Source of the DNA: Deltaproteobacteria bacterium
Lineage (GTDB): Bacteria > Myxococcota_A > UBA796 > GCA-2862545
Assembly: GCA_006226595.1 (NCBI GenBank)
Contig: SBGP01000088.1
Coordinates: 62,001 to 126,000, forward strand
Length of the DNA: 64,000 nt
Direction of reading: 5' to 3'
The notes beneath the pieces were generated by a model that was given only the letters and a program-made list of their open reading frames with translations, was not told the origin of the DNA and did no database searches. The translations under genes were made by a program, and so were the position numbers. Positions within the stretch are counted from its first letter, which is position 1, and each line of letters starts with the position of its first letter. Shown in pieces: positions 8,743 to 62,785 of the stretch.

Positions 8743-9608
8743 GCCAGCCCGCCGTCGACGAGGTCGAGCAGCACCGCATGCCGCTCCTCGAGCACCTCAA
8801 GGAGCTGCGCAATCGCCTGGTGATCTCGATCATCGCGCTGATCATCGGCATGCTGATCTCGCTCGCGTACACCGAGTGGCTCTACGCCATGCTCACCGCG
8901 CCGGTGCGCCAGGTGCTGGACTCCGGGATCGAGTACCCCGAGGCCGACGCGCTCTATGCCCAGCTCTCCGCGCCCATCCGCACGGCCCTCGCCAACGCCG
9001 GGCTCGCGACCGACGAGCGCATCAAGGGAACACTCGCCATTACGAGCTCGCCGCTTGAGGGCATGTACACCTACCTGCGGGTGGGCCTGGTCGGCGGAGC
9101 CGTGCTCGCCTCGCCGGTCATGGCCTACCAGGCCTGGGGCTTCATTGCGCCTGGCCTGTACGCCTCCGAGCGCAAGGTCGTGCTGCCGCTCACCTTCGCG
9201 TCGACCTTCCTGTTCCTGAGCGGCGCGATGTTCGCGTACGCGGTCATCTTCCCGGTCGCGTTCCCGTTCTTCTTCGCAGTGCTCGACGCCCAGCCGATGC
9301 TGTCCATCGATGGCTACCTGTCGACCATCGTGCGCATCCTGCTCGCGTTCGGGCTGTGCTTTCAGCTGCCGGTCGCGACGTGGTTCCTGGCACGCATGGG
9401 GCTGATCGACGCCAAGGACATGATCGTCGGCTTCCGCTACGCGATCGTCGCGGTGTTCGTCGTGGCCGCGATCATCACGCCGCCGGACATCCTCACGCAG
9501 ATCCTGCTCGGCGTGCCGATGGTCATCCTCTACGCGGTCGGCATCGTGGTCGCGTGGGTGTGGAGCACCAAGGAACGCGACGACGGGGCGACTACCGCGG
9601 ACTCTTGA
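8739..9608 (+). CDS. tatC: Sec-independent protein translocase subunit TatC
   Basis: 289 residues with six predicted membrane helices. Family hallmarks: the N-terminal LLEHLKELRNRL segment that contacts the RR motif, a FIAPGLYASERK loop, and TPPDILTQILLGVPM near the end. TatC recognises twin-arginine signal peptides and nucleates the pore for export of folded proteins. The first periplasmic loop carries about 35 extra residues (about 62-100) relative to the E. coli protein. GTG start overlaps the tatB stop. Its last 17 bases overlap the end of the convergent TonB-like gene. Confidence 0.95.
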   Translation: MSQPAVDEVEQHRMPLLEHLKELRNRLVISIIALIIGMLISLAYTEWLYAMLTAPVRQVLDSGIEYPEADALYAQLSAPIRTALANAGLATDERIKGTLAITSSPLEGMYTYLRVGLVGGAVLASPVMAYQAWGFIAPGLYASERKVVLPLTFASTFLFLSGAMFAYAVIFPVAFPFFFAVLDAQPMLSIDGYLSTIVRILLAFGLCFQLPVATWFLARMGLIDAKDMIVGFRYAIVAVFVVAAIITPPDILTQILLGVPMVILYAVGIVVAWVWSTKERDDGATTADS

Positions 9609-28125: not shown

Positions 28126-28932
28126 ATGGACCGCATCCCGTACATCGCTGTGCTCCTCGCGTATGGCCTCGTCGGCCTGGCGCATCTGCACCCCGGCATC
28201 GGGGAACGGCTCGGCGAGCGGGTTCGTACGGTGGCGTGGACCGGCGTGGTGCTCCATGGACTGGCGTTGCTGCTGCGCATGGTGACGACCACGATCGGCC
28301 CGGGCTTCCCCGAGGCGATCTCCGCGGGCGCGCTCGGGATCATGGGCGCGTACGCACTGGCCGGAAAGGGCCGCTTGTCGGCCCTGGGGCTGTTGCTCGC
28401 GCCGCTGGCCACCGTGCTCCTCGGCACCGCGCTGGTGGTGCCGCACCGCCAGGTGGCCGCGCTCGAACACTCGGACGCGGTGATTCCGTGGCTGCCCGTC
28501 CACCTCGGGCTCGTGTTCTTCGGGATCGCGAGCTTCGCGCTGTCTTTCGCCGTCGCGGTGCTCTACCTGCTCGTTCGCCGCGAGCTCAAGAACAAGCGCT
28601 TCGACCGACTCGGCCGACTCCCGTCGCTCGAGGTGCTCGACTCGCTGCAGTTCCGGGCCACGCTGTTCGGCTTCGGCGCGTTGACGCTGGGCATCGGCGT
28701 CGGGGGTGGCATCGCCGCGGTGGCTCTCGACGAGCCGTGGGCCTGGGATCCCAAGGTCGGCTTCTCGCTGCTGCTCTGGGCCTGGTACGGCGCGTCGCTC
28801 CAGCTGCGTCTGGTCGGTGGCTGGCGCGGCAAGTGGGCGGCCCTGTTCGCGATCGTCGGCTTCGCGGGCGCGCTGTTCTCGCTGCTCGGCCTCAACTTCG
28901 TGTCGACGGGGTGGCACGGCTATGGGGGCTGA
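28126..28932 (+). CDS. hemX: HemX / CcsA-type cytochrome c assembly membrane protein
   Basis: 268 residues, eight membrane helices. The C-terminal half carries the CcmC/CcsA/HemX signature around PWAWDPKVGFSLLLWAWYGASL (the tryptophan-rich WD-P-K segment that handles heme) and ends with NFVSTGWHGYG. Conserved histidines at about 104 (VPHRQ), 124 (LPVHLGL) and near the end could hold heme. Placed directly before hemA with an 11-bp overlap, this is the HemX arrangement, in which it limits glutamyl-tRNA reductase level or delivers heme; a role in cytochrome c maturation is the alternative. TAGATC is nine bases before the ATG; Shine-Dalgarno is weak. Confidence 0.85.
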   Translation: MDRIPYIAVLLAYGLVGLAHLHPGIGERLGERVRTVAWTGVVLHGLALLLRMVTTTIGPGFPEAISAGALGIMGAYALAGKGRLSALGLLLAPLATVLLGTALVVPHRQVAALEHSDAVIPWLPVHLGLVFFGIASFALSFAVAVLYLLVRRELKNKRFDRLGRLPSLEVLDSLQFRATLFGFGALTLGIGVGGGIAAVALDEPWAWDPKVGFSLLLWAWYGASLQLRLVGGWRGKWAALFAIVGFAGALFSLLGLNFVSTGWHGYGG

Positions 28933-30190
28933 CGCGCTGCTGGCCGTGGGCCTGTCGTACCGCACCGCTCCCGTGAACGTGCGCGAGCGGCTCGCCGTCG
29001 ACGACCTGGGGGTCCACCGAACCCTGGCGAACCTCGTGTCGAGCGGCGTGAGCCGCGAGGCGCTGCTGATCTCGACCTGCAACCGCGTCGAGCTGTACAC
29101 CGTGCCCGGCCGCGGAGGGGAGAGCGCGGTGGCCGAGTTCTTCTCGACCTTCCGTGGACCCGAGGGCGAGCCCCTCGACCGCTACCTGTACTGGCATCGC
29201 GGACGCGAGGCCGTGCAGCACCTGTTCCGCGTCAGCTCCGCCCTCGACTCGATGGTGCTCGGCGAGCCGCAGATCCTCGGCCAGGTCAAGGAGGCGGTGC
29301 GCCAGGCCCAGGAGGCCAACACCCTCGGGCGCGTGCTGCATCGCCTCACCCAGCGGTCCCTCGCCGTCGGCAAGCGAGTGCGTACCGAGACGGCGCTCGG
29401 TCAGCATCGCGTGGGCATCGGCAACGCTGGCGTCGACCTCGCGACCCAGATCTTCGGCGATCTGCGCGGCCGCCGCGCGATGCTCATCGGCGTGGGCGAG
29501 ATGGGCCGCCAGGTGGCCAATGCGCTGCAGACCGCGGGTCTGCACGAGCTCGTGGTGTGCAACCGGACGTGGGATCGCGCGCGCGAGCTCGCCGAAATCC
29601 AGGGCGGTACGGCGATCGAGTGGGGGCGCCTCGGCGAGTACCTTGGCCGCGTGGACATCGCGATTGCCGCGACGGGCGCGACCGAGCCGGTGCTGCGGGC
29701 TGCGGACGTTCGCTCGGCGCTGAGGGCGCGCAACTACCGGCCGCTGCTGCTCGTCGATCTCTCGGTCCCGCGCAACATCGCCTCGGACGTCGACGGCATC
29801 GAGGATGCCTACCTGTTCAACGTCGACCACCTGCGTGACGTGCAGTCGCGCGGCAAGGCTCTCCGCGAAGAGGCGGCCCAGGACGCGCACGCGCTCGTCG
29901 ACGACGAGACCGACCGGTTCATGACCTCGCTCGCCGAGCTCGACGTCTCCGAGCGCATCGGTGGGCTGGTTCGCCACTTCGAGGCCGTGCGGGCTGCCGA
30001 GATCGAGCGCAGCGGCCGGCTCGTCGCGGAGCTCGATGACGAGCAGCGCGAGGCGCTCGACGCGATGTCGCGCGCGCTGGTGAAGAAGGTGCTGCATCAA
30101 CCCCTTCAGGCGCTGCGCCAGGCCGCGCGCGAAGGTGACGCAGAGCGAGTGGAAGCCATCCTCCACGCGCTCGGCGAGGAGGACGCTTGA
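28922..30190 (+). CDS. hemA: Glutamyl-tRNA reductase
   Basis: 422 residues. First step of C5-pathway tetrapyrrole synthesis: NADPH-dependent reduction of glutamyl-tRNA to glutamate-1-semialdehyde. The catalytic cysteine is C53 in STCNRVE. DSMVLGEPQILGQVKEA and the NADPH-binding LIGVGEMGRQVA follow, then LVDLSVPRNI and a C-terminal dimerisation helix region. ATG overlaps the end of hemX; stop overlaps hemC (TTGA). The trio hemX-hemA-hemC is one operon. Confidence 0.97.
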   Translation: MGADALLAVGLSYRTAPVNVRERLAVDDLGVHRTLANLVSSGVSREALLISTCNRVELYTVPGRGGESAVAEFFSTFRGPEGEPLDRYLYWHRGREAVQHLFRVSSALDSMVLGEPQILGQVKEAVRQAQEANTLGRVLHRLTQRSLAVGKRVRTETALGQHRVGIGNAGVDLATQIFGDLRGRRAMLIGVGEMGRQVANALQTAGLHELVVCNRTWDRARELAEIQGGTAIEWGRLGEYLGRVDIAIAATGATEPVLRAADVRSALRARNYRPLLLVDLSVPRNIASDVDGIEDAYLFNVDHLRDVQSRGKALREEAAQDAHALVDDETDRFMTSLAELDVSERIGGLVRHFEAVRAAEIERSGRLVAELDDEQREALDAMSRALVKKVLHQPLQALRQAAREGDAERVEAILHALGEEDA

Positions 30191-31050
30191 GGACCCTGAA
30201 GCTCGGAACGCGCGGGTCGCTGCTCGCCAGGACCCAGAGCGGACACGTGGCCGAGGCCATCACCCGCGCGACCGGCATTCCCGTCGAGCTCGTGATCATC
30301 ACGACCCGCGGCGACAAAGTGCAGGACCGCCCGCTAGCCGAGGTCGGTGGCAAGGGCCTGTTCACCCTGGAGCTCGAGCAGGGCCTGCTCGACGGAAGCC
30401 TCGATCTCGCCGTGCACTCGATGAAGGACATGCCCACCGACATGCCGGAGGGGCTGATCTTCGGAGCGATCCCCAAGCGGGTCGACCCGCGCGATGCGCT
30501 CGTCGGCGCCACCCTCGACGAGCTCTCCGCCGGCGCGGTGATCGGCACGGGCTCCGCACGACGGGCCGCCCAGCTTCGCCGCCTGCGTCCGGACCTCGAG
30601 ATCCGCGGCATCCGTGGAAACGTCCCCACCCGCATCGCCAAGCTCGAAGAGGGCTACGACGCGGTCGTGCTCGCGGCCGCGGGACTGGCGCGACTCGACC
30701 TGCTCGGTGAGGCGCGGGAGCTGTTCGCGGAGGACCAGTTCGTGCCGGCGGTCGGGCAGGGAGCCCTCGCGGTGCAGTGCCGCGCGGACGACGCCGAGCT
30801 GCTCGGATGGCTCGCCCGGATCCACGACGAGCCCACCGCGCGCGCAGTCGAGGCCGAGCGGGCTTTCCTGCAGACCGTCTCCGGCGGGTGCTCGGTGCCG
30901 GCGGCCTGCCACGTGAGCTTCGAGGACGGACGAGCCCACGTGCACGCGATGTGGGAGCGCGACGGTCAGCTGCGTCGAACGCGGCTCGAGGGGCCGGCCG
31001 AAGAGGCCGTGACCTACGCTGTCGCCGCGGCCAAGGGTCTCGCCAGCTAG
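30187..31050 (+). CDS. hemC: Porphobilinogen deaminase (hydroxymethylbilane synthase)
   Basis: 287 residues, slightly short for the family (about 305-315). Condenses four porphobilinogens into hydroxymethylbilane. Motifs: LKLGTRGSLLARTQS, the catalytic aspartate region LAVHSMKDMPT, GSARRAAQL, GNVPTRI and the dipyrromethane attachment C235 in SGGCSVP. The C-terminal domain is trimmed after that. Start is TTG overlapping the hemA stop; the preceding bases within hemA supply GAGG. Converges on the MNIO gene, 10 bp away. Confidence 0.96.
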   Translation: MRTLKLGTRGSLLARTQSGHVAEAITRATGIPVELVIITTRGDKVQDRPLAEVGGKGLFTLELEQGLLDGSLDLAVHSMKDMPTDMPEGLIFGAIPKRVDPRDALVGATLDELSAGAVIGTGSARRAAQLRRLRPDLEIRGIRGNVPTRIAKLEEGYDAVVLAAAGLARLDLLGEARELFAEDQFVPAVGQGALAVQCRADDAELLGWLARIHDEPTARAVEAERAFLQTVSGGCSVPAACHVSFEDGRAHVHAMWERDGQLRRTRLEGPAEEAVTYAVAAAKGLAS

Positions 31051-31060
31051 CTCGCCGAGG

Positions 31061-32311
31061 TCATGGGCTCGCGGCCTCCCAGAGCGCGGCCTCTTGCCAC
31101 GGGAAGAAGGCGGTGGCGGGGGTGGCGCGATGGTACGCGAAGAACCGCCGCGCGAAGCCTGCCGGGTCTGCATCCGCCGCCTCGGTCGCGCCGGAGACGC
31201 CGTGGAGCACGCGCTCGTAGCGGAGCTTCGCCATGAGCATGGCCGAGAGCTTCACACCGTCGGCATCGGCGGCGGACAAGGCGATGCGATGGGGCTCGGG
31301 CAGGTGTTCGCTGGTGGTCGCGAGTCCGCTCCGGGTGCGGAGAGCGGGGCCGAGCGAGCGTTCCCAGCGCAGCCAGGCCTCGTCGCCGATGGCCGGGAGC
31401 AGTGGCATCGGCTCGGGCTCGGACGGCGTGTGCCGCGGCACGGCGGCGCACAGCGCGCGCAGCCGGCGAAGCTCGCGGTCGACCTCGGGGACCTCCGCGT
31501 CGAGCAGCGTGCCCTCCATGCGCTCGAGCAGCACGCCGCGCAGGTTCGGGCAGTAGGGAAGCACGGCCTCGAACAGCCGCCACACAGGCTCGGGCACCGC
31601 GCCGTCATGCCCGTCGAGCCACATCGGTCGCAGCCCGCCGCCCCACGCCGGGTCCGCGGGGCTGCCTCCGGAGAGGTGGATCTCGATCACCCGCGTCAGA
31701 TCGAGGTGAGCGAGCCATGCCTCCGCCGAGAACCCGCCGTTGCGGGCCATCGTCCACACGTTGTGCAGATCGAGGAGGATGTGGCTGTCGGCCTCGCGGG
31801 CGATAGCGGTCTGCAGGGCGGCATCGCGGCACGGATCGCCCCAGTGGGCATAGAACGCGGTGGTCTCGAGGCCCACCTCGGGCGACACCGCGCGCATGGC
31901 GTCGAGTCGAGCCGCCGTGTGCTCCACCGCATCGGGGGTGGGCAACGGTGGCATGGGGAGGCTGATCCATTCGCCGCCGAGGGCGAGGCCGTGGTGATCC
32001 GTCCACCAGTCGTACGAGCGCTCGCTGGCGGTCTTGGCGCGCCAGGCGTCGACGCGAGCGTGGTCGTCCGGGGCCGCGGTCGCGGGCGAGAGGCCCACGC
32101 CATGAGCGACGACGGGGAGCTGAAAGCTCGCCGCGACCTCGTCGTAGAGCCGCGCGTACCCGTTGTCGACGAGCGTGCCGTCCGGGGCGTGCTTCCAGCC
32201 GGTCTCCGGCGCGATGCCGATGTAGTCGGCGTGCGCGCGCACGAGCGGTACCGCTCGCCGATGGAAGTCGAGGTCCGGGTGGAGCATGAAGCCGACGGGA
32301 ATCGCGCGCAT
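31061..32311 (-). CDS. DUF692 / multinuclear non-heme iron oxidative enzyme (MNIO) family protein with C-terminal extension
   Basis: 416 residues. Residues 1 to about 280 are a DUF692 TIM barrel: YIGIAPE, VVAHGVGLS (H70), TDHHG (105-108), GLETTAFY (E149), LLDLHNVW (D181, N184), EIHLSGG (H212), LDGHDGAVPEPVW (H235, D236), LLERMEG (E263). These match the positions of iron ligands in MbnB and TglH, so the metal site looks intact. Known members rebuild cysteines of ribosomal peptides into oxazolone, thiooxazole or related groups. About 120 extra helical residues follow, possibly standing in for the usual separate partner (MbnC/DUF2063). Last gene of a four-gene cassette with two Tat-exported, two-cysteine proteins. 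Confidence 0.85.
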   Translation of the reverse strand: MRAIPVGFMLHPDLDFHRRAVPLVRAHADYIGIAPETGWKHAPDGTLVDNGYARLYDEVAASFQLPVVAHGVGLSPATAAPDDHARVDAWRAKTASERSYDWWTDHHGLALGGEWISLPMPPLPTPDAVEHTAARLDAMRAVSPEVGLETTAFYAHWGDPCRDAALQTAIAREADSHILLDLHNVWTMARNGGFSAEAWLAHLDLTRVIEIHLSGGSPADPAWGGGLRPMWLDGHDGAVPEPVWRLFEAVLPYCPNLRGVLLERMEGTLLDAEVPEVDRELRRLRALCAAVPRHTPSEPEPMPLLPAIGDEAWLRWERSLGPALRTRSGLATTSEHLPEPHRIALSAADADGVKLSAMLMAKLRYERVLHGVSGATEAADADPAGFARRFFAYHRATPATAFFPWQEAALWEAASP

Positions 32312-32320
32312 GAACCCAGG

Positions 32321-33016
32321 CTACTCGAACAGATACAGGACCATGGACACGCCCATCGGCACGTGACCCATGCCGCAGTCCACGGCGGCCGGCTCCTCGC
32401 CGAGCAGGTGGCCTCCCGCGCAGCCTCCGCCGCGCACGTACCAGCGGGCGCCGACCGGGGCGGTGGAGGACAACTGAGCTCGCAGGGCGCGACCGTCGCC
32501 GGTGCGCTCGGGCAGTTGGTGACGGACAGTGCGCTCGAGCTGCGCCACCCGGTCGCGCTGCCGCTCATCGAAGGCGCGCTGCTGGGCTGCCCAGTCCTCC
32601 TCCCAGGGAGACTTCAGGGTGGCGTCGGGCGCGGCGAGGGGGGAGAACACGGCCTTGGTGCCGGCGGGGATGACCGCGGTGTCGACCACGACGAGCAGGG
32701 GTTCTCCGCGCGGGGCCGAGGGAACCAGCGCGCGCAGGTCCGCCATCGTCGCCGCTACGAGCTCGGTGGCCGCGAGCTGATCGAGTAGCTCCTCGCTTCC
32801 CAGCGTGAGCAGCTCGGCGAGCAGCTCCCCGCGAGACCACTTCTCGCCGTCGTCCTCGGGGATCACGAGCACGACGAGGTGAACGCCGCGGTCCACCGCG
32901 CGCCGGAAGGCGGCGGACACCGCCTGCAGCTCGTCCTGGGGGCCAGCATGCGCGAAGGGTGCGAACAGCGCCCCGGCGGCCAGGCCACGCAGGAGCCGGC
33001 GGCGTGACCAGGCCAT
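32321..33016 (-). CDS. Tat-exported hypothetical protein B with C-terminal two-cysteine CGMGH motif
   Basis: 231 residues, paralog of the next entry. Twin-arginine signal SRRRLLRGLAAGALF, cleavage probably after FAHA. The core shares ELxAVxAAFRxAxDxG, then VIPEDDGEKW (51-60). The only cysteines of the precursor are C199 in RGGGCAGGH and C214 in VDCGMGHVP. After them comes a hydrophobic end MVLYLFE. The core could be thioredoxin-like, but without a CxxC. The stop lies nine bases before the MNIO start, and the start overlaps protein A's stop. Function unknown; its cysteines are reasonable candidates for MNIO modification or metal binding (inference). Confidence 0.78.
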   Translation of the reverse strand: MAWSRRRLLRGLAAGALFAPFAHAGPQDELQAVSAAFRRAVDRGVHLVVLVIPEDDGEKWSRGELLAELLTLGSEELLDQLAATELVAATMADLRALVPSAPRGEPLLVVVDTAVIPAGTKAVFSPLAAPDATLKSPWEEDWAAQQRAFDERQRDRVAQLERTVRHQLPERTGDGRALRAQLSSTAPVGARWYVRGGGCAGGHLLGEEPAAVDCGMGHVPMGVSMVLYLFE

Positions 33017-33717
33017 CAGGCGTCGACCTCGAAGAAGTACATCACCCGAGCGGAGCGCGCGTTGACGTGGCCCATGCCGCAGCCGACGGCCATCTGACGG
33101 GTGGCGCCTTCGACCATGGTCCCGCATCCGCCCGAGCGGGCCCAGTGGCTGCCCTCCACGGGCTCGGCGAGCACCTCGGTCCGGAAGCGCTGGATCGCCC
33201 GGGCGCGCTGCGGTGGCTCGGGAAGCGCGGCGAGCACGAGGTCGGAGAGCGCGGCGATGCGTGCGTCGATGGCGTCGTCCGTCTGCTTCTCGCGCTGCTC
33301 CCAGCTCATGTCACCGCCCCAGTCGGGGTCGTCGACGAGCCTGGTGGACAGCGGGTTCACCGCGGCGGGCACGGCACTCGCGTCGATGGCGAACATCAGG
33401 GCCTTGGCGTCGATGGCGCCAGGCACCAGCGTTGCGAGGTCCTCGCGGCGCGCGGCGACGAGTACGGCGTGCCCGAGCCTGGCCTGCACGTCGAGATCGC
33501 CGTGGTTGATGAGCTCGCCGAAGGCCCGGCCGAGTCGCCACTTCTCGCCGTTGTCGTCGGGGATCACGAACACGAGGAGTGGACGACCCTCGTCGGCGGC
33601 GGTGCGGAATGCGGCGGCCACGGCGGCGAGCTCGGTCGGCGCGCCTTCGAATGCCTGCACCACCGTGGGAAGCGCGAGGGTGGCGAGGGCGGCGGTGAGG
33701 AAGCGGCGGCGGTTCAT
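33016..33717 (-). CDS. Tat-exported hypothetical protein A with C-terminal two-cysteine CGMGH motif
   Basis: 233 residues. N terminus MNRRRFLTAALATLALP is a clear twin-arginine signal with AxA-like cleavage near VVQA. Shared with protein B: the core ELAAVAAAFRTAADEG, VIPDDNGEKW (51-60), and the C terminus with exactly two cysteines, C198 in RSGGCG and C213 in VGCGMGHV, H217 following in CxxxH spacing. The two paralogs line up almost without gaps, so the duplication is old (overall identity perhaps a third) while the tail is conserved. Overlaps both neighbours by one to three bases. No known family recognised. Confidence 0.78.
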   Translation of the reverse strand: MNRRRFLTAALATLALPTVVQAFEGAPTELAAVAAAFRTAADEGRPLLVFVIPDDNGEKWRLGRAFGELINHGDLDVQARLGHAVLVAARREDLATLVPGAIDAKALMFAIDASAVPAAVNPLSTRLVDDPDWGGDMSWEQREKQTDDAIDARIAALSDLVLAALPEPPQRARAIQRFRTEVLAEPVEGSHWARSGGCGTMVEGATRQMAVGCGMGHVNARSARVMYFFEVDA

Positions 33718-34586
33718 CGGAGCTCCACGCGGGTGAGGGCACCGGCGGCGGAAGAGAGGATCACCTCGCGCGCATCGGTGAATGGGAGGACTTCGCGGTC
33801 GAACAGGCGGTGCAAGACCACCCCGTCCGCTTCGCTCGACCAGCGCATGGTCGCCTCCGTGGCGGCGCAGTCGCGGGCGTTGCCGGAGGCGTCGAGTACC
33901 AGGCATCGGCTGTCGGAGGCGTACACACCGACGTGTCGGGGGTCCCGGAGCAGGTCGCCGGCGCTGCCGAGCGCCTCGGTCTTCGTGATGTCGGTCGCCT
34001 GGCCAGAGAGTCGACCCTCGCTGCCGAAGGTCAGGCGCACCGCGTGGTGCACCGAGACCGTGCTCGACTGACCGCGACCGCTCGTGTGCAGGGGGGCGAG
34101 CAGCTCGGCGTGCCCGACCTGCGCGGGGACCCGCGGATCGTCGAAGGGCAGGGGAGACAGCTCGCTCAGGCCGTCCGGGGCGTCCTGATCCGCGAGCGTG
34201 AGGAAGAGATCCCCGGCGAGGAGCACCTCTCCGCGAAGCTCGCCGTCCACGAGGTCGGCAAGCTCCTGGCCCACGTCCGCGGATCCCGCCAGGACCAGGG
34301 CCTCGGAGGCGATGTCCTCGCCGAGGAAGAAGAACTGGGGCCCGTCCGCGTCCAGCCACACGAGCTCGCCGTCGAGGGGGCGAGCGGGCACGGACTCGCC
34401 GTCCACGTGCAGCACGAGCTCTTCGCCGGCGTACACGGACACGGGCATGATGCTCGTCCGGTCGGTGCCGTCGATCTCGACCGCGTGACCGGCCTCTCGT
34501 GCGGCGGCGCTGGTGAGCACGAGAGCGTCGCCACCGCCGGCATGGCAGCCGACGAGCAGGACCAGAGACAGGTGAATGCGGTGCAT
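33714..34586 (-). CDS. Hypothetical lipoprotein, first gene of the MNIO cassette
   Basis: 290 residues. Short signal peptide with lipobox LVGC; the mature chain begins CHAGGGD. It is beta-rich and acidic, with two further cysteines late in the chain (SRCLV and RDCAA, about 225-240). No family recognised. GGGAGGG lies eight bases before the ATG, the strongest ribosome site of the cassette, and its stop overlaps the start of Tat protein A (ATGA). Position suggests it works in the envelope with the two exported proteins, perhaps as receptor or anchor; this is inference. Confidence 0.7.
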   Translation of the reverse strand: MHRIHLSLVLLVGCHAGGGDALVLTSAAAREAGHAVEIDGTDRTSIMPVSVYAGEELVLHVDGESVPARPLDGELVWLDADGPQFFFLGEDIASEALVLAGSADVGQELADLVDGELRGEVLLAGDLFLTLADQDAPDGLSELSPLPFDDPRVPAQVGHAELLAPLHTSGRGQSSTVSVHHAVRLTFGSEGRLSGQATDITKTEALGSAGDLLRDPRHVGVYASDSRCLVLDASGNARDCAATEATMRWSSEADGVVLHRLFDREVLPFTDAREVILSSAAGALTRVELR

Positions 34587-34678: not shown

Positions 34679-35442
34679 TCACAGCAGCAAGGTGCTGCGA
34701 ACCGCCTCGATCACGCCGTTCTCGGTGTGCGGGTTGGCCACCCGGACGACGTCGAGACCGACGGAGCGGGCGGTCGCGGCCGTGGAAGGGCCGATGGCGA
34801 TGGCGCGGGCCGGAGTGAGTCCAGCGCGACGACACGCGCGCTGGTAGCGACGCGCTGCCGAGCCCGAGAACAGCGTGACCAGGTCGACGTTGCCGATCTC
34901 GCGCAGGCGCTCGTGGGCGTCGGCGGGCGGGACGTTGCGGTACGCGACGATCTCGGTCAGGTCGGCGCCGGCGCGCTCGAGCGCCTCACGGGTGCCGCTC
35001 GCGACCATCTCGGGGCGGGGGTAGAGCACCCGCGCTCCCTCGAGGGAGCCGAGGGCACGGACGAGGTCCACCCCGGTGGCGCTGTCGGGCACGACATCGA
35101 CCGGAAGCCCTGCCTCTCGCGCGGCCTCGGCGGTGGCGGGGCCGACGCAGGCAAATCGCGGAGCACGCACGGGCTCTCGCCACACGCGCCCGACGGCGCG
35201 CGCCGACGTCGCACTGGTGAGGAGCACGATCTCGGCGGTGACCAGCGCCCTGCGCAGCTGAGCCGTGGATTCGGTCGCGAGCTCGCGCACGATGAGCGGC
35301 AGGTGCGGCGCCTCGAGACCCAGCGCCTCGAGGGCGTCGATCAGCGAGCCCGCGTCGCTCTCGGAGCGGGTGACGAGCACGCGGTGCACCCGGTCGGGGC
35401 GCGGTCCCTCGTCCTCGTCGGCGCGACGGGCGGGCTCTGCGC

Positions 35443-35446
<4 letters not shown>
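34679..35446 (-). CDS. hemD: Uroporphyrinogen-III synthase
   Basis: 255 residues. Fold of two alternating domains: HRVLVTRSESDAGSLIDALEALG at the start of domain 1, LLTSATSARAV, FACVGPATAEAAREAG, the domain-2 hinge and VDLVTLFSGSAARRY with AIGPSTAATARSVGLD near the end. HemD sequences are weakly conserved, but these turns are standard. It closes hydroxymethylbilane into uroporphyrinogen III, following HemC. Rather than following hemC, it is on the opposite strand 3.6 kb away, with the MNIO cassette between. Start overlaps the acyl-CoA dehydrogenase stop (ATGA). Confidence 0.88.
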
Positions 35447-36594
<1,148 letters not shown>

Positions 36595-61750: not shown

Positions 61751-62785
61751 CTGGACCGCGGAACCGTCATTCGCTACCTCGTCGCCGCCGTGCTGAGCGT
61801 CGGTCTGCTCGCGTGGTTCGTGTCTGGCCTGCATCCGATGCAGATGCTGCAGGCGCTGTCCGGCGTGAAGCCGGGGTGGGTGATCGTCGCCGCGATCTGC
61901 ATCCTTCTCGAATACGCCGTTCGCGCGGCTCGCTGGGGTGTGCTCCACCAGGAGGTCGACCCCGGCGTGACGTACGCGGACCTGTGGCGAGCCACCACGG
62001 TGGGCAACGCGTTCAACACGCTCCTTCCGCTGCGTGCCGGCGACGTGGTCCGGCCCGCGGTGCTCGCTCGTCGCCGTCGCGTGCCGTTCACCACCGTGCT
62101 GTCGACGGCGATGGTCGAGCGCATCTTCGAGCTTGCGGGGGTGGTCGTCGCGCTGCTCACCCTGCTCGTGTACCTGCCCGACGAGATGATCGAGGGCGGT
62201 GGCATCGTCGCCGACGTGAAGCATCACGGCGTCACCGTCACGGTCGGCGCCCTCGCGCTCCTCGTGTTCATCGTGCTCCTCGGCTCCGGCGGCGCGCGCG
62301 ACATCTTCGCGCGTCTCGTGAAGCCGCTTCCGCAGGGCTGGGAGGACTGGGCGATCGCGGTGTTCGATCAGCTCGTCGCGGGGCTCGCGGCGGTGGGAAA
62401 CCCGCTTCGCCTGGTCGTCGCCTCGGTGCTCACCGCGGTCTCCATCGGCTGTGGCGTGGGCGGCATCTGGGCGCTGTTCCAGGCCTTCTCCGTCGACCTG
62501 CCGGTGTCTGCCTGCCTGTTCGTGCAGCTCGCGCTGATGGCCGAGATCGCCGTGCCCCAGGCGCCGGGCTTTCTCGGCGGCTTCCACTTCGTGATGGAGG
62601 AGTCGCTGCTCCTGTGGCAGGTCGAGGAAGGCCTGGCCGAGGCGAGCGCGATCCTGCTGTGGCTCGTGTGGTTCGGGCCGATCACGCTGTGGGGGCTGTT
62701 CGACGCGTCCCGTGAAGGCGTGTCCCTGTCGTCTTTCCGCGAGGACCTGGGGCCGGCGAACGAGGACGACGCGCCTGCCGAGTAG
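61751..62785 (+). CDS. Lysylphosphatidylglycerol synthetase/UPF0104-type flippase-like membrane protein
   Basis: About 344 residues with seven or eight membrane helices. Family motif region: YAVRAARWGVL followed by NAFNTLLPLRAGDVVRPAVLARR and AMVERIFELAGVVVA, then LAEIAVPQAPGFLGGFHFVMEESLL-like segment, as in MprF-type flippase domains and AglD2. No synthetase domain is attached. The start is uncertain: in frame there is no ATG/GTG/TTG before the first helix. CTG at 61751 has GGAGG five bases upstream and is used here; ATT at 61769 or GTG at 61790 are alternatives. Divergent from the PfkB gene. Confidence 0.75.
   Translation: MDRGTVIRYLVAAVLSVGLLAWFVSGLHPMQMLQALSGVKPGWVIVAAICILLEYAVRAARWGVLHQEVDPGVTYADLWRATTVGNAFNTLLPLRAGDVVRPAVLARRRRVPFTTVLSTAMVERIFELAGVVVALLTLLVYLPDEMIEGGGIVADVKHHGVTVTVGALALLVFIVLLGSGGARDIFARLVKPLPQGWEDWAIAVFDQLVAGLAAVGNPLRLVVASVLTAVSIGCGVGGIWALFQAFSVDLPVSACLFVQLALMAEIAVPQAPGFLGGFHFVMEESLLLWQVEEGLAEASAILLWLVWFGPITLWGLFDASREGVSLSSFREDLGPANEDDAPAE

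Follow-up and report, generated by a model that had tools for sequence, protein, structure and literature searches.

We report the analysis of a four-gene cassette in which an enzyme of the MNIO (DUF692) family is encoded beside two candidate substrates. It lies in a 64,000-nucleotide stretch of DNA, here called the window, from Deltaproteobacteria bacterium (GTDB lineage Myxococcota_A; UBA796; GCA-2862545), namely positions 62,001 to 126,000 of contig SBGP01000088.1 in assembly GCA_006226595.1. The cassette occupies the minus strand from window position 34586 to 31061 and encodes, in order, a lipoprotein, two proteins with twin-arginine (Tat) signals, referred to as Tat proteins A and B, and the MNIO. 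The lipoprotein (34586-33714, -; 290 residues) is assigned from its homologues and from its lipobox, LVGC, and its gene overlaps by 4 bases that of Tat protein A (33717-33016, -; 233 residues), for which an AF2 model and alignment delineate a Tat signal, a predicted thioredoxin-like domain (residues 28-170) and a C-terminal tail, and which is a putative substrate of the MNIO. Tat protein B (33016-32321, -; 231 residues) is by sequence comparison a paralogue of A, with 36% identity across 214 residues; its gene overlaps that of A by 1 base and is separated by 9 bases from the MNIO gene (32311-31061, -), whose 416-residue product carries a fused C-terminal partner domain (residues ~320-416; 31061-31354, -). 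Each Tat protein has exactly two cysteines, C198 (33124-33126, -) and C213 (33079-33081, -) in A, C199 (32420-32422, -) and C214 (32375-32377, -) in B. In A both fall within the tail, residues 186-233 (33019-33162, -), which alignment of its copies defines as W-x4-GCG-...-GCGMGHV. A re-reading of the sequence, together with an alignment of 13 homologues, bore out the coordinates, gene spacing, cysteine positions and iron-ligand residues given in the initial annotation.

The cassette is conserved, and 27 MNIO-linked loci were read in Myxococcota and Planctomycetota. Some of these, such as L031 and L243, are linked only through an MNIO, or a fragment of one, elsewhere in the genome, their contigs ending early, and 23 are complete enough for the partner domain to be called. 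The gene order is constant: a lipoprotein gene in myxobacteria, one to nine Tat genes, the MNIO gene and then the partner domain, either fused or separate. Overlaps of 4 bases are frequent between cassette genes across loci, and the Tat and MNIO genes usually overlap or lie less than 50 bases apart. The only genes common to all complete loci are those for the Tat protein or proteins, the MNIO and the partner domain. We therefore rejected a hidden small precursor peptide as the substrate, since no further conserved gene occurs in the complete loci and the overlaps and very short gaps leave little room for one. In 11 loci, the window included and every one of them myxobacterial, a lipoprotein homologue is encoded ahead of the Tat genes, and 9 of the 11 have a lipobox by a simple pattern. 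No homologue was found in the planctomycete loci, so the lipoprotein appears from its distribution to lie outside the core of the cassette and was set aside as a substrate of the MNIO, which leaves the Tat protein as the only candidate substrate common to complete loci.

The association of the Tat family with the MNIO holds from both directions. A search among 58 relatives found the Tat family in 8 genomes, that of the window included, and nearly all its members adjoin an MNIO or sit on a contig that ends before one would be reached; the exceptions are one cysteine-less paralogue each in the window's own genome and in a sister genome. Conversely, the MNIOs of the cassette clade in these relatives (those above 150 bits) all adjoin Tat genes. 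In a phylum-wide sample the family was present in 13 of 379 genomes, and among 392 planctomycete genomes sampled, 14 gave a profile match, many of them marginal. A scan of the genome collection with the tail motif alone matched at least 117 loci; among the matches listed, several of which are from Planctomycetota, 15 belong to the family by profile, and an MNIO is present at 13 of these 15 against none of the 102 others, from which we conclude that the association is not due to chance. The two remaining family loci (L157 and L186) are cut by sequence ends, and the full contig of L157, read as L028, reaches an MNIO. Scans of the same collection with single-protein patterns gave no matches, and a plasmid search gave no match to the cassette. 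The link between tail and MNIO proposed in the initial annotation is thereby upheld in loci of two phyla, and a wide occurrence of Tat homologues without a DUF692 neighbour, which would have told against it, was not observed: the exceptions are few, and the distal tail cysteine is absent from all 8 family members without a neighbouring MNIO.

The MNIO itself matches Pfam family PF05114 over residues 62-265 (E 6.9e-29; 101.3 bits, the curated cut-off being 25), and a PDB profile search with its core returned only DUF692, TglH and MbnB. The residues H70, H106, E149, D181, N184, H212, D233, H235 and E263 are invariant in the 13 homologues, with D236 nearly so, and they match, partly by alignment, the nine iron ligands of TglH in kind and order (H71, H107, E151, D184, N187, H216, D229, H231 and E258; PMC10880893). 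The enzyme lies far below the cut-offs of every named NCBIfam MNIO type that it matched (bits/cut-off: BufB 80.5/310, HvfB 73.7/360, ChrH 66.8/600, ApyH 36.1/400); the ChrH model, the equivalog NF050165, gives 651-716 bits to true ChrH proteins from the order of Hyunsoonleella. In a tree of 58 rows the family's 23 MNIOs fall together as a group (support 88/92), set apart from the other MNIOs of the relatives, and in the best tree this group is sister to ChrH and ChrH-like enzymes. We read the family MNIOs as a distinct clade by sequence, perhaps sister to ChrH.

Among the NCBIfam models the window MNIO scores highest on BufB, which speaks for a different chemistry, of bufferin/oxazolin type, in which each tail cysteine is converted to a 5-thiooxazole or a related copper-binding heterocycle and the exported protein handles copper. 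Bufferins do bear signals for secretion, and it is cysteines that their enzymes modify; a glycine follows the cysteine at most sites of the tails, a pattern shared with EGKCG, the target of FonB and HvfB. We nevertheless consider this explanation unlikely. In the tree the bufferin-type MNIO of the window's own genome sits on a branch (98/98) separate from the family, and Pfam and NCBIfam searches of the four cassette proteins gave no match to DUF2282, to an EGKCG or multi-cysteine precursor or to a DUF2063 partner, whereas Sec-signal precursors are tied to DUF2063-type partners (PMC12452194). Nor would a rule of two cysteines be needed if each were modified alone. A bufferin-type cluster does occur elsewhere in the same genome (L001, 741-2952, -, contig C1), with a precursor of SCKGxNxCKG-like repeats, an MNIO and a DUF2063 partner (PF09836, 1.1e-11).

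The initial annotation had noted the lack of a separate partner protein and supposed that the C-terminal extension of the MNIO takes its place. The related loci agree with this: the partner domain is a separate gene in 12 and fused to the MNIO in 11, with at least six switches between the two states on the tree. Its AF2 model is all-helical (pLDDT 84.9). A sequence search of the PDB with residues ~320-416 found no relatives, Pfam and NCBIfam offered no convincing family and Foldseek alone gave nothing significant. When the Foldseek candidates were aligned with VIA-align, the first was TglHI (8hi7), chain A, residues 1-123, with a Z of 3.9, low in absolute terms, and an rmsd of 3.9 over 104 residues, the chain not being named in the output; the next row had a Z of 2.4 over 55 residues. 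We find the match persuasive because the best-scoring chain comes from an MNIO-partner complex and, since the match is all-helical, residues 1-123 fit the N-terminal helical domain of TglI and not the TIM barrel of TglH. In TglI this domain is the part that binds TglH, and at the time of its description no other protein was known to share its structure (PMC10880893). The structural model thus supports the view that the extension is the apparently missing partner; it may be of the TglI-like kind (PME-type 2), whose helical domain resembles TglI/NGO1945 in structure and has no DUF2063 signature in its sequence.

The Tat proteins have no convincing family in Pfam or NCBIfam. The twin arginines ascribed to them in the initial annotation are invariant in all 20 aligned members of the family and are followed by a hydrophobic stretch; the family profile aligns with the Tat signal peptide of CueO (9e04; E 0.024), and Pfam TAT_signal matches 5 of the 20. 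TatC has a single match in the genome, which falls within the window (8790-9518, +), some 22 kb from the cassette. By sequence, then, the proteins are predicted to be Tat substrates and to be exported. The AF2 model of protein A is confident (pLDDT 88.6, pTM 0.84), with part of the tail forming a loop of lower confidence (pLDDT 70-79). Although Foldseek alone was weak (best E 0.53), the VIA-align rows listed for residues 28-170 bear the titles of thioredoxin-fold proteins or domains (Z 5.0-7.0), the best being 3fk8 (Z 7.0, rmsd 3.2, 112 residues), and a thioredoxin-like fold is predicted for this region. The models thus support both a thioredoxin fold in the Tat protein and a partner-like helical domain in the MNIO. 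In this fold the protein resembles DsbD-gamma and PDI/AGR2-like periplasmic thioredoxin-fold proteins, from which it differs in having no CxxC and in that its two cysteines belong to a tail appended beyond the thioredoxin domain. No cysteine lies inside the domain in either window protein, and thioredoxin catalysis was rejected as a role because CxxC is missing.

In the tail, 15 aligned copies all retain W192, C198 and C213-G-M-G, although their identity to protein A is no more than 25-51%, and the cysteine-glycine pair at the second site is kept in 65 of 67 complete MNIO-linked tails; the copies share descent, so that such counts are not independent events. In genomes that bear an MNIO, every copy of CGxG has a partner cysteine, which lies 13 to 23 residues upstream in 58 copies, 50 or 52 upstream in 2 and 3 to 7 upstream in 9, this last, proximal form being found mostly where the distal W-x4-GC is absent. 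The window tails read GC-x14-CGMGHV and are internal, with no CPxCGxG ending of ChrH type; exact CPxCGxG occurs only in a few proximal copies (CPPCGMG in L242, CPACGLG in L135). Two copies from a genome without an MNIO by this profile (G552) read CGTP and have no partner cysteine. The cysteine-less paralogues of the window's genome (L032, 6204-7076, +, contig C87) and of its sister (L033, 6801-7682, +) have a Tat-type signal and a thioredoxin-like domain, yet lack tail cysteines (GSKWIIPATEG), and the 12-13 kb of sequence read at each gave no match to an MNIO; they are natural controls. Among planctomycetes, one locus (L241, genome G383, contig C277) has nine tandem Tat-family paralogues before a single MNIO, at least one of them without the CGxG motif, which suggests ongoing gain and decay of copies.

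These paired cysteines might alternatively form an ordinary structural or redox disulfide of the periplasm, the MNIO acting on the lipoprotein or on an unseen peptide. Predicted export and a predicted thioredoxin-like fold would suit such a role, and the two cysteines do stay paired even when one of them moves. Against this stand the failure to find a lipoprotein in the planctomycete loci, the ability of the tail motif alone to predict an MNIO neighbour, the identity of some proximal tails with the known MNIO motif CPxCGxG and a conservation of C-G-M-G around the second cysteine far beyond what a disulfide needs. We judge this explanation quite improbable, although it is the main way in which the reading that we favour could be wrong. 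Still another explanation would make the MNIO a metallochaperone, which inserts a metal into, or hands it to, the tail cysteines with no covalent modification. Tat is often used for proteins that acquire a metal cofactor before export, which speaks for this explanation. The full oxygenase iron site of the MNIO is conserved, however, and no MNIO in the literature consulted acts in this way. The histidine of CGMGHV was rejected as a metal ligand, as it is variable (Y, F, R, D, S, M and T are also found), which leaves the two cysteines as the only obvious place for a metal. We regard the metallochaperone as hardly credible, and the option of metallation raised in the initial annotation drew no support from any evidence gathered here.

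The comparisons establish, at the level of sequence, a conserved cassette, an apparently intact iron site, a partner that is split or fused, Tat-type signals and a paired-cysteine tail; that the Tat proteins are the substrates of the MNIO is a well-supported inference. We consider it probable that the MNIO, with its TglI-like partner domain, oxidatively modifies the two-cysteine tail of Tat-exported thioredoxin-fold proteins in the cytosol. On this proposal the Tat protein would fold first, and its flexible tail, W-x4-GCG-...-CGMGHV, would enter the iron site of the MNIO and partner, where the cysteine of CGMG would be bound and oxidised at iron and, by analogy with ChrH, DybH and MelH, linked to the second cysteine with the loss of ~4 Da. 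Tat would then carry the folded and modified protein to the periplasm, export following modification, as we infer; in myxobacteria a lipoprotein would be co-produced. ChrH-like chemistry of the tail (~-4 Da), with both cysteines converted, is probably to be preferred over bufferin-like heterocycles. More tentatively, and at somewhat less than even chances, we suggest that the MNIO joins covalently, over a long range, two tail cysteines separated by 13-23 (up to 52) residues in a thioredoxin-fold protein that has already folded and that Tat exports whole; such Tat-exported 'RiPP-proteins' would have radiated into tandem arrays in both Myxococcota and Planctomycetota. Comparative and structural evidence thus supports the interpretation of the initial annotation, to which the thioredoxin-like fold, the tie through CPxCGxG to ChrH-type substrates and the tandem arrays are added here.

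Several observations weigh against the modification that we propose. A structural disulfide would equally keep two cysteines together. The score of the MNIO on the ChrH model falls below its BufB score, support for placing it as a sister to ChrH is weak (83/57) and hhalign found no sequence similarity between the partner domain and the C-terminal domain of ChrH (probability 0.1). Usually 13-23 residues separate the tail cysteines, in an internal motif, whereas in the known ChrH-type substrates the two cysteines are 2-3 residues apart and mostly at the very C-terminus. Two array copies beside MNIOs have lost CGxG, and a four-member planctomycete array with C-x3-6-CGTG tails (L238, 3661-8087, +, genome G747, contig C25) has no MNIO within the 14 kb read, the same genome having an MNIO cassette elsewhere (L237).

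Among the nearest of the characterised systems is the ChrH subfamily (chryseobasin type), whose substrate motif is CPxCGxG (PMC12636315). DybH accepts CPPCGMG as well as a ring longer by one residue, and on GFP the tag is enough by itself; MelH modifies a 34-kDa signal-bearing secreted protein only with its separate C-terminal domain MelHc (PMC12636315). As in these systems (PMC10214503, PMC12636315), the present cassette combines an MNIO core with a C-terminal domain, here predicted to be helical, that is either fused or encoded apart (in theirs, apart in Cyanobacteria), and with a two-cysteine motif around CGxG, rare tails being exactly CPPCGMG or CPACGLG; its putative substrates are whole secreted proteins, as is MelA1, above 30 kDa, in theirs. 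It differs in that its MNIOs form a clade far under the ChrH cut-off with C-terminal domains of no detectable sequence similarity, and in that the putative substrates are thioredoxin-fold proteins with Tat signals and an internal motif, encoded in up to nine tandem paralogues. Small ChrH clusters have been mentioned in Myxococcota and Planctomycetota (PMC12636315) and, because they are described with a CPxCGxG ending, their counterparts are probably ChrH-like loci, of which L245 in the window's own genome is one, though they may overlap with the present Tat family. That genome also holds a chryseobasin-type cluster on contig C42, where an 86-residue peptide with a signal-like N-terminus and the ending ANDPCPACGRG (L003, 1066-1326, +) lies beside a ChrH-like MNIO (L034, 8531-9601, +; 199.5 bits on the ChrH model).

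With TglHI, which makes the pearlin 3-thiaglutamate (PMC10880893), the cassette shares its iron ligands and the best structural match of its partner, but TglI stands as a protein of its own, to which an RRE domain is added, and the substrate of TglHI is a C-terminal cysteine added to a small scaffold peptide. Bufferins and oxazolins (BufB/HvfB; PMC12452194, PMC12668002) likewise pair an MNIO with the cysteines of a signal-bearing precursor encoded just upstream, but theirs have Sec signals, conserved cysteine sets or repeats and a DUF2063-RRE partner. As for its surroundings, the cassette is flanked by hemA-hemC (28706-31050, +) and hemD (34679-35710, -), and hemA is also close to the cassette in the sister genome (L025) and in L092. 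A link to heme synthesis was considered and rejected, the hemC and hemD flanks being shared only with the sister genome; most other loci have different neighbours, and we therefore treat the hem flanks as inherited gene order.

Modification of whole exported proteins by an MNIO is already known from MelA1. New here, as far as the literature searched shows, are the Tat signals in place of Sec signals, the thioredoxin-like carrier, the wide internal motif, the arrays of up to nine paralogues and the occurrence in Myxococcota and Planctomycetota; the literature search found no Tat-exported MNIO substrate. If the proposal is true, MNIO chemistry reaches folded proteins exported by Tat, which would suit a system that finishes its modification before export. 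Furthermore, the natural variants of the family, in which the partner cysteine is distal, proximal or missing and the partner domain is fused or split, make it testable which part of the substrate the MNIO reads and what spacing of the two cysteines is permitted in a ChrH-type reaction.

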